This document shows, one piece after another, positions 34,111-38,984 of a DNA stretch of 64,000 bases (the first letter of the stretch is position 1; each line of letters starts with the position of its first letter). The notes below the pieces were generated by a model. It was not told where the DNA came from. It saw only the letters and a list, made by a program, of their open reading frames with translations, and made no database searches. The position numbers were made by a program, and so were the translations under genes. Source of the DNA: Streptomyces rishiriensis (lineage in GTDB: Bacteria > Actinomycetota > Actinomycetes > Streptomycetales > Streptomycetaceae); the NCBI RefSeq assembly GCF_030815485.1, contig NZ_JAUSWV010000002.1, positions 372,001 through 436,000 on the forward strand, in the 5' to 3' direction.

Positions 34111-34551
34111 TTGCGACTGCATCGCGTAGCGCCCGGCATCGCCGCGGGCATCCTTGCCCCGGCCCTCCTGCTCGCCACCCCGTCCTTCGCCGCCACGGCT
34201 GCACCGACCGCGGTGACGGTGCCCGCGGTGTCCCCGTCCGCGGACGAGCCGGACGCCGACGACCTGAGGGTGGCCATAGTCCGGATCCTCGCCGACCCGG
34301 ACAGCGGCCGACGTGTCACACGAGAAGCCAACGCCCTCCTGGACGCCAACGACCCCGAGGCGATGCGCGCCTGGCTGGAGACCGGCTACCGCATCGCCCA
34401 GGCCGAGGACGACCGCGTCGCCATCGCCCGTATCCTCGCCGATTCGTCCATCAGCCCGGCCCTGCGCGCGGCAGCCAACGCCGCCCTGGACGACAACACA
34501 CCCGAAGCACTGCGCCACTTCCTGGAAGTCGGCAGGTACCAGGTCGCCTGA
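34111..34551 (+). CDS. Secreted ALF-repeat protein
   Basis: A 146-residue exported protein. The TTG at 34111 is chosen because GAGGAG ends 8 bases upstream and the frame then begins directly with a signal peptide (LHRVAPGIAAGILAPALLLA, cleavage near SFAATAA). The mature part has two ALF-type short repeats (RVAIVRILADPDSGRRVTREANALLDANDPEAM-like unit, then RVAIARILADSSISPALRAAANAALD), a family with no known function found in extracellular actinobacterial proteins. Upstream frames to 34051 are less likely coding. Confidence 0.75.
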   Translation: MRLHRVAPGIAAGILAPALLLATPSFAATAAPTAVTVPAVSPSADEPDADDLRVAIVRILADPDSGRRVTREANALLDANDPEAMRAWLETGYRIAQAEDDRVAIARILADSSISPALRAAANAALDDNTPEALRHFLEVGRYQVA

Positions 34552-34674: not shown

Positions 34675-34778
34675 GCAGTCCCTGTGCCGGCTCGGCGCCC
34701 TCCGCAGAGCTCTGTGGTCTCGCCGCCCGGTGCGGCATGGGCCACTGACACCTCCGACAGCAGAAAGCACCTTCTTCG

Positions 34779-35555
34779 ATGACCACACAACCCCTACGCA
34801 CCGAGCGCAGCGGTCAGCAGACCGCCTCCGTCGTGACCGACCTGCCGTTCAAGCCTCAGCTCGTCAAAGCGGTGTTCAGGGACGTGACCTCGTTGCACGT
34901 CTCCCGGCCGGCCGCGTGGGCCGCCGCGTCGGTGACGCGGACCGTGCTGACGGAGATCATCGAGGGCGCGAGAAGCGCGGCGGCCGAGGAGGTCAGGAAG
35001 AGGCTGATTCCCAAGGACCTCATCTCGGCGATCGACCGGAACATCGAGGTGGAGGTGGGATCGGCGTGGTACCTGCACAGCCCGACCTTCCACGGCCTGA
35101 TGGGCGAGGTGCGCAACGCCGATGGTGCGCTCGTGTCTCTTCGTGAGCGCCGCGGGGCGCGTACACCGAGTGGTGTGGCCGGCGCCCACCGGTTCGAGGC
35201 CGGGGTGAGAAGGCTGCTGGGGAGCCGGGGGGTGAGGGCGGTCCCGGCGATGGTCCGCGACCTGGACGGAATCGCGAGCGTGTTCCTGACGGCCCTGGCC
35301 CGGGACGCGGCCAAGGTCGTCCGCGAGGGCGGGGTCAAGCGGTTCGGGACGGTCAGTCTGGTGGTGCCGGGCGAGCCGACCCCGGCCCCGCTGCTCAAGG
35401 ACCCCCTCCTCGCCCTGTCCACCCGTCGCGGGGACGGGCGCACTGTTGGCGGGGACGACGTCCTGGCCGCCGTCACGATGCAACTGTTCGGCGATCTCAG
35501 ACAACGCGCCCTCACCGAGGCAGCCGAGATGACACGGAACACGTCGGCCAACTGA
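34779..35555 (+). CDS. Predicted histone-fold doublet (H2A-like then H2B/H4-like half)
   Basis: A 258-residue protein. Residues 21-92 read like a histone fold of H2A type: LPFKPQLVKAVFRDV (alpha-1 region), SRPAAWAAASVTRTVLTEI, continuing IEGARSAA (long alpha-2), then KRLIPKDLISAIDRN, where H2A has TRIIPRHLQLAIRN (loop 2 and alpha-3). Residues 137-250 look like a second fold: FEAGVRRLLGSRGVRAVP, GIASVFLTALARDAAKV (alpha-2), an inserted loop, then GRTVGGDDVLAAV (TVxxxDVxxA as in histones) and a C-terminal helix FGDLRQRALTEAAE recalling the H2B alpha-C helix. No signal or membrane segment. Likely DNA-binding; this is inference from sequence only. Confidence 0.65.
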   Translation: MTTQPLRTERSGQQTASVVTDLPFKPQLVKAVFRDVTSLHVSRPAAWAAASVTRTVLTEIIEGARSAAAEEVRKRLIPKDLISAIDRNIEVEVGSAWYLHSPTFHGLMGEVRNADGALVSLRERRGARTPSGVAGAHRFEAGVRRLLGSRGVRAVPAMVRDLDGIASVFLTALARDAAKVVREGGVKRFGTVSLVVPGEPTPAPLLKDPLLALSTRRGDGRTVGGDDVLAAVTMQLFGDLRQRALTEAAEMTRNTSAN

Positions 35556-35840: not shown

Positions 35841-37241
35841 TCACAACCTCGTCGCTCCGTGTCGCTCTTCACGCCTGGGAGGTGGGGCTGCCGGGGACTC
35901 GGCCGGGTCCGGCTGCGCTTGCCGGCGGGTGAACAGGGTCCAGGCGGTGGAGGCGAGTGCGGTCACCGTGAGGGCCGCCAGCATCGGCGTGGTGTGGGAC
36001 CCGGCGCTGTCGGCGGCCCGGGCGACGGGGTTGGGCATGCCGAGACGGTCTGCCAGCCAGCCGAGGGCCGCGGTGCCTGTGAGCACTGCTCCGGTCAGGC
36101 GCAGCGCAGGCTGCGCCCGCAGGCGTGCGAGTACCAGCAGCGAGGGTAGAGCAAGGCATACCAGCAGGAGCTGGATCAGTTCTATGCCGAGGTTGAAGCC
36201 GAGGAGGCTGGTCACAAGCTGTCCGGTGGACAGGTGCATCTCCGACAGGACGAAGGAGAAGGCCATGCCGTGACCGAGCCCGAAGATCCCGGCCACGAGC
36301 GCTTCCTTGCCCGGGAAGAGGGGGCGGATCGCGTGGATCGCGCCGACCAGGATGCTCGCGGCGATGAACGCCTCAACCGGCCAGCCGGGAATGTCCAGGC
36401 GGCCGAGTGCGGTGATGGCCAGCGCGGCTGAGTGCCCGGCGGTGAAGGCGAGCGTGATGCGGCTGATGCGCCCGAGGGCGGGCCGGGCGCCGACGAGGCC
36501 GTGCCAGCGTCGTCCAGCTGCTGCGAGCGGCGCGGGCAGGAGCAGGATCAGCAGGAAGAGCAGGTGGTCGGTGCCGGTGAGGATGTGGTTGCCGCCCAGC
36601 TTCACCATGGCGAGGAATCCATGCCAGGCGCTGCCGTGGCCGAGGTCGACCGTCAGGGCGGGGACGGTCATGGTCCGGGTGTCGATGCCGATGGTGCCGA
36701 CCTGGGTGGTGCCGGCGCCGTCGACGTGACCGGCAGCCCAGTCCTGACGGACGGTCACCAGTGCGGTGTGCGTGATGACTTGGTGGACGATGACGTCGTA
36801 GCCGAAGGTGAAGCGGCGTACGTCGGTGTTGACCGGCGGGGTGAGCACGGCCTCGGCGACCAGCTCGCGGTAGGGGCCGGTAGAGGTCTGCTCGGTGCTG
36901 CTGAGGCTCAGGGCGCCGACGCTGACCTGCCAGGCCTTGCCACGGGTGGTGGCCGGGTGGATGTGTTCGGCGAGGTAGGTGCGGAGGGCCTCGGCCTTCA
37001 GGGACAGCGTGGCGCGGGTGGTGTCGCTCAGATCGATCCCGCTGGCTCGGGAGAGGTCATCCACCGGCAGTTCGAGCCGGGCGGTGACCGAGGTCTGGTA
37101 CACGTCGAGCTGGACCACCGAGTGCGGCATCGGATGCGCGGCGGCCGGCGACGCCCCGAGCAGGAGCGTCGCCGGTACCGCGAACGCGATCCCGGCAACC
37201 CAGCGGAGCGCTATGGTCAGCCAGTTTCGCGGTCCGGTCAT
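35841..37241 (-). CDS. HupE/UreJ_2-family membrane protein
   Basis: A 466-residue protein. A signal sequence (ALRWVAGIAFAVPATLLLG, ending AAAHPMPHS) leads to an extracytoplasmic beta-rich domain of about 180 residues. A C-terminal membrane domain of about 7 helices follows, with the HupE/UreJ_2 signature GGNHILTGTDHLLFLLILL and later LAFTAGHSAALAI and GLGHGMAFSF. Histidine-rich motifs in these helices suggest metal (Ni/Co-like) handling. Its ATG overlaps the stop of the upstream DUF3500 gene (ATGA). No hydrogenase or urease genes are in the window. Confidence 0.88.
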   Translation of the reverse strand: MTGPRNWLTIALRWVAGIAFAVPATLLLGASPAAAHPMPHSVVQLDVYQTSVTARLELPVDDLSRASGIDLSDTTRATLSLKAEALRTYLAEHIHPATTRGKAWQVSVGALSLSSTEQTSTGPYRELVAEAVLTPPVNTDVRRFTFGYDVIVHQVITHTALVTVRQDWAAGHVDGAGTTQVGTIGIDTRTMTVPALTVDLGHGSAWHGFLAMVKLGGNHILTGTDHLLFLLILLLPAPLAAAGRRWHGLVGARPALGRISRITLAFTAGHSAALAITALGRLDIPGWPVEAFIAASILVGAIHAIRPLFPGKEALVAGIFGLGHGMAFSFVLSEMHLSTGQLVTSLLGFNLGIELIQLLLVCLALPSLLVLARLRAQPALRLTGAVLTGTAALGWLADRLGMPNPVARAADSAGSHTTPMLAALTVTALASTAWTLFTRRQAQPDPAESPAAPPPRREERHGATRL

Positions 37242-38518
37242 GAGAAGGAGAACTCGTTGCCGTAGTCGCGGGTACGGTCGCGGTACACGGTGTGGTAGTG
37301 GATCTGGTCCCGGTAGACCACGCCGTCCTGGCAGACGAACTCGATCCAGACGCTGGGGCCGTCGATCCGGACGTAGTCGCCCTGGGTGTCCAGGCCGGTG
37401 CCGCCGGAATAGGCGAGGTAGGTCTGGTTCAGCTCACGCTCGTACGTCTTCAGGAGCTGCTTCGCGGTGGCGTCGTCCACATCGGCGACCCATGGGTGGA
37501 TGGCCTCCAGGACCAGCTTCTTCTGTTTGGCCGACAGAGAGCTGACCGGAATGCCTTCCTTGGTCGCCGGGAACTTGCCGTCCTGGTCCGGGCCGAGCAG
37601 GACGTCGCTGAAGGACGTCGACAGCTTGGCGGTGGCCAGCTGCGTGTCGCTCAGGCTGCCGGTGAGCTTGAGCAGGCCGTCGCGGAATTTCGCCATCGGC
37701 GCATAGGTGGTGCCGTCGTCGGCGGTCCAGCTGGTCGGCTCGACGCCGGTGAAGAACGGGCTGGCGCCCGCCACTTTGCCGTCCCTGTACGTGATGTTCA
37801 CGGCGAGGTGGTGACCGCCGAAGTGCAGCTGCCAGGTGCCGGTCGCCGACGGGGTGCCCAGGAACGCCAGGAAGTAGACGCCGCTGCCGTAGCCGCCACC
37901 GCCGGGGCCACCACCGGCGCCACCGCCGGGGCCGCCGGAGGGCGGGGCGCCGGTCGGGACGTCGGTCGGGAGATCCGAGGCAGTGGAACTGGCGGTCGGG
38001 TCGGCCGAGGGCGCGCCGGACGTGCTGTCCGTCGGTGCGGCGGACGCGGAGCTGCCGCTACCCGCCGAGGCGAGCACCTCGTCGGCCAGGAGGGTCTGCA
38101 TGACGTGGTCGTAGCCCGTGTCTTTGCCGGAACCCAGGGCGACCTTCAGCATATTCTCGAGAGCGGTCAGTTGGGTGTCGGTCAGCGAGCCGGTCTGTAT
38201 GCCGGGGCGGCAGGAGGAGCCGCAGGGCAGGTTCGACCACGCCGTGGCGTTCTCCTCGGTGAAGTCCAGAAGCGTGTCTGTCTGCTGGTCCGAGTCGAGG
38301 GTGTTGAGGAACGCGTTGGCGGCGCTGACCACGGCCGCGACGCCGGCGGCCTTCTTGTTGACCGGGTAGTGGACGCCGGCCTTCTTCGCATCGCTGTCGG
38401 TTGTCGCGGCGTTGGCCGCCACGAAACCGCCGCCGACGAGGACGACACCAGCGGCCACGCCGGCGATGCCCCGCCAAGTCCGGCGGCTACGAGCCTGACG
38501 TGTTCTCTCTTTACTCAC
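37238..38518 (-). CDS. DUF3500-domain secreted protein
   Basis: A 426-residue exported protein. GTG at 38518 with GGGAG 5 bases upstream. The signal segment is GIAGVAAGVVLVGGGFVAAN. The DUF3500 region begins around AANAFLNTLDSDQQTDTLLD and continues past a Ser/Thr/Gly-rich spacer (residues about 155-215) with YFLAFLGTPSATGTWQLHFG, GHHLAVNITYRDG and SLSAKQKKLVLEAIHPWV. The end is IHYHTVYRDRTRDYG. Histidines in GGHHLAVN and HYHTVYRD could bind metal. Coupled to the HupE-like gene, suggesting joint metal or cofactor handling. Function unproven. Confidence 0.82.
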   Translation of the reverse strand: MSKERTRQARSRRTWRGIAGVAAGVVLVGGGFVAANAATTDSDAKKAGVHYPVNKKAAGVAAVVSAANAFLNTLDSDQQTDTLLDFTEENATAWSNLPCGSSCRPGIQTGSLTDTQLTALENMLKVALGSGKDTGYDHVMQTLLADEVLASAGSGSSASAAPTDSTSGAPSADPTASSTASDLPTDVPTGAPPSGGPGGGAGGGPGGGGYGSGVYFLAFLGTPSATGTWQLHFGGHHLAVNITYRDGKVAGASPFFTGVEPTSWTADDGTTYAPMAKFRDGLLKLTGSLSDTQLATAKLSTSFSDVLLGPDQDGKFPATKEGIPVSSLSAKQKKLVLEAIHPWVADVDDATAKQLLKTYERELNQTYLAYSGGTGLDTQGDYVRIDGPSVWIEFVCQDGVVYRDQIHYHTVYRDRTRDYGNEFSFS

Positions 38519-38984
38519 GAACACTCCCTGGAGAAAGGTGGGGACGGTGCGCCGACTCTGCGGACGGCGGCGTCCGGGACACGCGCGCGCTGGATGAGAG
38601 AACTATCAGCAATATTGTTGACAACTCAATGCCCGAGCCGCCAGGCCAGTCCCATTTGGACAGCGGCACCGCATATTGAGCAAATATGCTGGGCTCATTG
38701 ACAGGTTGCTCTTATCGCGGCTTCAGCAGCCGAAGCGGACGCGCGTCACGTGACGATCGCCGTCTCGGCGCCTGCTCCACTGTGTGCGGGCCACACTTCG
38801 GCGTGATGAACAGCGTCAGAGGTGTGATCGCGGCGACGATGTCCCTGCCCCGACCCGGCGACCCTGTACTCGTGACCGGGGTCGTCGTTGTGGGGCCCGA
38901 GGACTGAGTTCGATCTGACGGCTGCCCCTCTGCTGTCGGCGAATCGGTCTGGCCGGGCGGTGATCCCGGTGCTTGTGTGTCGAT
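38519..38984. other. Intergenic region between divergent DUF3500 and reductase genes
   Basis: Contains an unusually AT-rich patch near 38605-38700 (ATATTGTTGACA; CATATTGAGCAAATATG) that may hold the DUF3500 promoter and operators. A plus-strand tail ending DPVLVTGVVVVGPED (stop about 38907) may be a relic. No supported gene. Confidence 0.4.

Follow-up and report, generated by a model that had tools for sequence, protein, structure and literature searches.

A 64,000-nucleotide stretch of Streptomyces rishiriensis DNA (the window) carries, at 34779..35555 on the forward strand, an open reading frame whose 258-residue product is predicted to form two histone folds within a single chain. Judged by structure prediction and sequence comparison, the protein belongs to a double-histone family of Streptomyces that is real and conserved. 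As its most likely function, we somewhat favor that of an accessory nucleoid protein that binds and bends DNA. The reading frame, its coordinates, and the two motifs quoted in an initial annotation made from the letters alone are present as described: KRLIPKDLISAIDRN spans residues 74-88 and GRTVGGDDVLAAV residues 220-232. The protein is laid out as follows, with helices α1 to α3 and αC and loops L1 and L2 named as in histones.

34779..35555, forward strand: double-histone protein, 258 residues.
34779..34841, forward strand: N-terminal tail, residues 1-21, mostly disordered and nearly neutral in its evolution.
34842..35048, forward strand: histone fold 1, residues 22-90 (α1 26-36, α2 43-70, α3 78-88), nearest to H2A by profile.
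34989..35021, forward strand: L2 and start of α3 in fold 1, residues 71-81, with RD-clamp-like positions by our own alignment.
35049..35192, forward strand: inter-fold linker, residues 91-138, of low model confidence.
35193..35546, forward strand: histone fold 2 and αC, residues 139-256 (α1 140-149, α2 156-182, α3 225-235, αC 238-256).
35337..35435, forward strand: 33-residue insert, residues 187-219, between α2 and L2 of fold 2, of low model confidence.
35436..35459, forward strand: L2 and start of α3 in fold 2, residues 220-227, with R221, T222, and D227 conserved.

Structure prediction (five models with a mean confidence score, pLDDT, of 67.6 to 70.3) makes both halves histone folds. Each half is predicted to adopt the order α1-L1-long α2-L2-α3, DSSP assigns short β bridges to the loops (40-41, 75-76, 153-154, and 222-223), and the two folds of the one chain pair in the prediction as a histone dimer does. 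The predicted α3 helices are 11 residues long in both folds and the α2 helices 27-28. The initial annotation had read the protein as two fused histone folds ending in a helix like the αC of H2B, and had proposed structure prediction as a check; sequence profiles and models agree with it on both points. The insert beside L2 of fold 2 is probably disordered. Five linker residues are invariant (W97, S101, F104, H137, and R138), and the linker includes a basic stretch that reads RERRGAR in the window protein and RKRSRSRKPS in some relatives.

The gene has Streptomyces-like codon usage (GC content of 0.70/0.53/0.88 at the three codon positions) and occurs once in its own genome. A protein search found 439 homologues at E ≤ 1e-3, and the source names given among the 120 matches listed are Streptomyces or Actinacidiphila. 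When started from a relative that lacks the insert, the search returned 437, scoring only the 7998 candidates that shared most words, and added Embleya among the 120 listed. The homologues are labeled hypothetical protein by NCBI, and some records in JGI and UniRef have been named automatically as 'histone H3/H4' or 'Histone H2A/H2B/H3'. Selection on the family is purifying: the ratio of nonsynonymous to synonymous substitution rates (dN/dS, NG86 method) is 0.43 over 276 pairs in the subfamily of the window protein, where the folds have 0.27-0.48, the insert 0.36, and the N-terminal tail 0.95. For 628 pairs from a wider set, the overall ratio is 0.50, with the folds at 0.33-0.60 and the insert at 0.85. 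An alignment of 81 sequences contains 21 invariant columns. Four insert-less relatives (P0121, P0122, P0145, and P0154) keep open reading frames; some other family copies have stops or truncations.

Pfam profiles place fold 1 close to histones. Residues 18-96 match the Pfam Histone family PF00125 at E 2.3e-4 with 21.8 bits, and the whole protein scores 20.4 bits, both under the curated cut-off of 26.4 bits. We thus assign the protein by its predicted fold and its family, not by the PF00125 model. Fold 1 also matches Pfam TAFII28 (E 1e-3). Among the first folds of 46 family members, 44 match Histone and 42 match TAFII28 at E ≤ 10, with best E values of 1e-5 and 1.7e-4, respectively; among 29 whole proteins at E ≤ 1, TAFII28 matches 26 and Histone 23. 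Taken as sequence evidence, the histone resemblance exceeds chance. A fold-1 profile matched 176 Protein Data Bank (PDB) sequences at E ≤ 10, and the best 60 of these are all H2A or contain H2A across the matched part, led by the Melbournevirus miniH2B-H2A (E 0.0018). The initial annotation had called the first half H2A-like. The profile upholds this view, but a search with the single window sequence is less clear: its top match is an H2A (E 0.013), and those that follow are mostly H3 (E 0.36-1.5).

Fold 2 is harder to place. No Pfam family matches the second half of the window protein, and a fold-2 profile that includes the insert found no histones. With residues 187-219 cut out, fold 2 has 124 PDB matches at E ≤ 10, and H4 and H2B account for 59 of the best 60. 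The lowest E value for H2B, 0.0013, adds up two H2B copies within a single chain; a listed chain in which one H2B stretch matches has E 0.014, against 0.0043 for H4. The natural insert-less relatives, in which the 33 residues are absent (225 residues in all), are a stronger test than this artificial cut. Their profile has 97 PDB matches at E ≤ 1, and the best 60 listed include H4 at E 0.0017 and an archaeal histone at E 0.0043. One of them, P0145, reaches 27.1 bits against Pfam Histone, over the cut-off, in two matched stretches, and its fold 2 (residues 142-197) matches CBFD_NFYB_HMF at E 4e-4; the other three score 17.8-25.6 bits, under the cut-off. Of 18 insert-free fold-2 sequences taken alone, only one matches Pfam Histone, weakly (E 0.15). 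At least two separate losses of the insert are probable, because in the FastTree topology P0121 and P0122 group together (support 0.70), and P0145 and P0154 are placed elsewhere, interspersed with insert-bearing proteins (support 0.93).

The paralogue identity of the two halves, as sequence comparison places them, is mixed. The initial annotation had proposed an H2B-like second half and a eukaryote-like H2A-H2B order. From α3 through αC, fold 2 does resemble H2B in sequence, and the predicted fold overlays on H2B chains with a root-mean-square deviation of 1.2-1.9 Å in 13 of 14 rows (11.2 Å in the other), counting those among the listed rows that align fold 2 alone; we took these chains to be H2B from the usual chain naming of nucleosome entries. 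From α1 through L2, however, it lies nearer to H4 and archaeal histones. The H2A-like nature of fold 1 is supported by profile, but a specific H2A-H2B ancestry is therefore not established. Identity to H2A-H2B chains in the structure overlay is 11-17%. A profile comparison of fold 1 with fold 2 found no similarity, and we rejected a recent duplication of one fold.

The window protein is basic (net charge +9, isoelectric point (pI) 10.7), as is the family (mean charge +10.1, median pI 10.7). Hocher et al. described an RKTV motif in L2, an RD clamp, and a sprocket arginine in L1 (PMC10627809), and we matched the window protein to these positions by our own ungapped alignment. In fold 1, L2 reads R73-K74-R75...D80, without the T of RKTxxxD; R73 is conserved in 79 of 81 sequences, K or R at position 75 in 80, and D80 in 80. 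L2 of fold 2 reads R221-T222...D227 (conserved in 78, 81, and 81 of 81, respectively), with G at the first R of RKTxxxD in 51 of 81. Neither fold keeps the sprocket arginine: fold 1 has H40 in 73 of 81 sequences, and fold 2 has A154 in all 81, preceded by T (57) or R (20). The conserved reading frame, the basic composition, and the conserved basic L2 positions in both halves are direct observations. With the sprocket arginine not kept, DNA binding and bending are an inference, as were the bending or wrapping proposed in the initial annotation.

In the mechanism we propose, this basic protein of 258 residues would form two histone folds paired in one chain, giving a single-chain histone dimer. 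The folds are predicted to pair as in H2A-H2B, followed by the αC helix. Duplex DNA would be bound through the two L2 loops and the α1 helices, and bent. A short segment would lie across the α1 face, and we expect bending rather than wrapping because of the sprocket arginine missing in both folds, the insert beside one L2, and the αC helix. Carried on variable DNA, the gene might supply an accessory nucleoid protein to a genome that has three HU-type and four Lsr2-type genes as well.

The main rival, which we regard as possible though clearly not probable, is a scaffold or regulator that does not bind DNA and whose double histone fold serves to contact other proteins. The histone folds of Spt3, TAF11/TAF13, and SOS are used in this way, and DUF1931 proteins may do likewise; the window protein shares with the former a double or paired histone fold and similarity to Pfam TAFII28. 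Against a scaffold stand the slight lead of Histone over TAFII28 on fold 1 (44 against 42 of 46; 1e-5 against 1.7e-4) and the basic L2 positions and pI near 10.7 kept across the family, where the DUF1931 protein of the same genome has a pI of 5.5 and a charge of -5. In addition, the only conserved partner gene found in 63 neighborhoods is an ALF-repeat gene, which accompanies one subfamily. We give very little credence to the idea that the gene has no function and is simply carried along as a passenger on chromosome arms and plasmids. The patchy distribution (39 of 295 genomes), the broken copies, and the frequent proximity to contig ends would fit a passenger, but the dN/dS of the window's subfamily, its low values in the folds, the invariant columns, and the four insert-less relatives that stay open and in frame argue otherwise.

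The remaining rival is a histone doublet derived from a eukaryote or giant virus that oligomerizes and wraps DNA in nucleosome-like particles, a view we consider improbable. The fold-1 profile does point to H2A, with the Melbournevirus protein best, the αC region is H2B-like in sequence and overlay, and nine models from giant viruses in BFVD match at E ≤ 1e-3, of which eight bear the name histone. However, fold 2 from α1 through L2 is like H4 and archaeal histones rather than H2B, identity to H2A-H2B chains is low, the sprocket arginine is absent, and αC could sit near a tetramer interface. A fuller version, in which Streptomyces took a core-histone pair from such a source, fused it with H2A first, and spread it on arms and plasmids, where it wraps or caps DNA in a nucleosome-like manner, seems to us unlikely; if the acquisition were true, linear bacterial replicons would gain a nucleosome-like particle. 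We rejected a defense or phage protein: neither PADLOC nor PHROG matches the window protein or P0145 at E ≤ 0.1, phage records give no match at E ≤ 1, and no viral contig was confirmed among 37 pattern matches.

Several known histone systems come close to the proposed single-chain dimer. The archaeal Methanopyrus kandleri doublet (PDB 1f1e) has 151 residues rather than 258, and its length would leave no room for an αC, a long linker, and an insert. Eukaryotic H2A-H2B and the Marseilleviridae H2B-H2A doublets (7n8n and 9cvt) share the pair geometry, the H2A-like fold 1, and the H2B-like α3-αC. In the viral doublets, though, the order is reversed, as the window protein places its H2A-like fold first, and with respect to both systems fold 2 from α1 through L2 is nearer to H4 and the linker and insert have no counterpart. 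Bdellovibrio HBb, also a bacterial histone, has an RKTxxxD-type L2, which the L2 stretches of the window protein resemble in part. Bacterial dimer α3 histones such as HBb have a single fold, an α3 of 3-4 residues, and a shortened α2 (PMC11390915); the 11-residue α3 predicted in both folds rules the window protein out of this α3-truncated class.

Bacterial DUF1931 double histones were also considered. The member in the same genome (C2:46357-46770; L122 1477-1926, forward strand) has 149 residues, is acidic, and lies about 46 kb from a contig end. Structures 1wwi and 1r4v are presumably DUF1931 entries. Membership of the window protein was rejected, as PF09123 scores 13.1 bits on fold 1 against a cut-off of 21.8, and BLAST finds no similarity to the DUF1931 protein of the genome. 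A DUF1931 gene is present in 22 of 199 Streptomyces genomes, and it shows no association with the window family (co-carried in 4 genomes versus about 3 expected, P 0.35, assuming that the 199 are genomes G000-G198). In another locus, L123, an open reading frame close by reads, by eye, like an Hsp20-type protein. DUF1931 double histones are described as lacking DNA-binding residues (PMC11390915, PMC13088155), and the mention of bacterial pseudodimers in the initial annotation agrees with the review literature (PMC13088155).

None of the titles and abstract openings listed by our literature searches describes a Streptomyces double histone. PMC13088155, PMC11390915, and PMC10627809 contain neither 'actino' nor 'Streptomyces' in their main text, although the supplements of the latter two may list some members, and PMC7219639, a candidate for a paper on histone folds in Streptomyces, has neither term in its main text. 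The survey of 2023 relied on curated Pfam cut-offs together with an additional list (PMC10627809), and that of 2024 used InterPro and AlphaFold and defines 17 categories (PMC11390915). Among the 174 homologues listed, 4 have a precomputed PF00125 tag. Most of the family is missed at curated cut-offs, which may explain why surveys relying on them did not name it in the main text. Some Streptomyces may carry their own histone-type chromatin protein. The bacterial double histones named in reviews are said to lack DNA-binding residues (PMC13088155); a basic doublet with long α3 helices, an αC, and conserved L2 residues would give a tractable single-chain histone in bacteria that can be cultured. 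It would allow tests of histone-type DNA bending in bacteria beside HU and Lsr2, and of an archaeal, viral, or eukaryotic origin of such genes.

Of 295 Streptomyces genomes, 39 carry the family (two through matches that are weak and partial), as do 5 of 41 near relatives. A whole-genome search of 296 genomes of the class found it in seven, all Streptomyces; PF00125 has one match in the same set, also in a Streptomyces. Across 396 genomes of the phylum, four Streptomyces match strongly and nine others match at E 0.002-0.09 over short stretches. Members also occur on one Embleya plasmid and in loci titled Kitasatospora, Actinacidiphila, and Yinghuangia, and five plasmid records carry the family, three matching over most of its length. 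S. griseomycini (L005/L029) and S. viridosporus (L004/L071) each have two copies, about 96% and 73-74% identical to the window protein. Copies cluster near contig ends in 17 genomes with at most three contigs: six lie within 300 kb (1.2 expected, simulated P 7e-4) and nine within 600 kb (2.4 expected, simulated P 2e-4), with cut-offs picked after viewing the data, broken copies included, and record ends taken as chromosome ends. One subgroup (P0158, P0155, P0163, and P0148; 283-294 residues) has a C-terminal extension ending in ...PPPVREIDRxG.

Two features lie upstream of the gene.

34111..34551, forward strand: ALF-repeat protein gene with a TTG start and, by eye, a likely signal peptide.
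34736..34778, forward strand: leader of about 40 nucleotides directly upstream of the ATG, from a consensus of 22 and 49 copies.

The 63 neighborhoods contain no conserved operon apart from the ALF-repeat gene; the set includes one place twice, as L001 and as the window, and leaves out 18 of 81 sources with no called histone gene. The ALF-repeat gene adjoins 23 of 29 copies in subfamily A, that of the window, and 0 of 62 in subfamily B, counting a few loci of the same genome twice, four clearly partial matches, and one only 41% identical. It also accompanies subfamily A copies on a S. fungicidicus plasmid, as a short remnant. Scans for a sigma-70 promoter or a terminator found none. The leader is similar in both subfamilies, and sequence farther upstream is not conserved in subfamily B; the leader may mark a boundary of regulation or mobility. 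A HupE/UreJ-like membrane protein is encoded beside a DUF3500 protein (35841-37241 and 37238-38524 of the window, both on the reverse strand), in convergent orientation to the histone gene.
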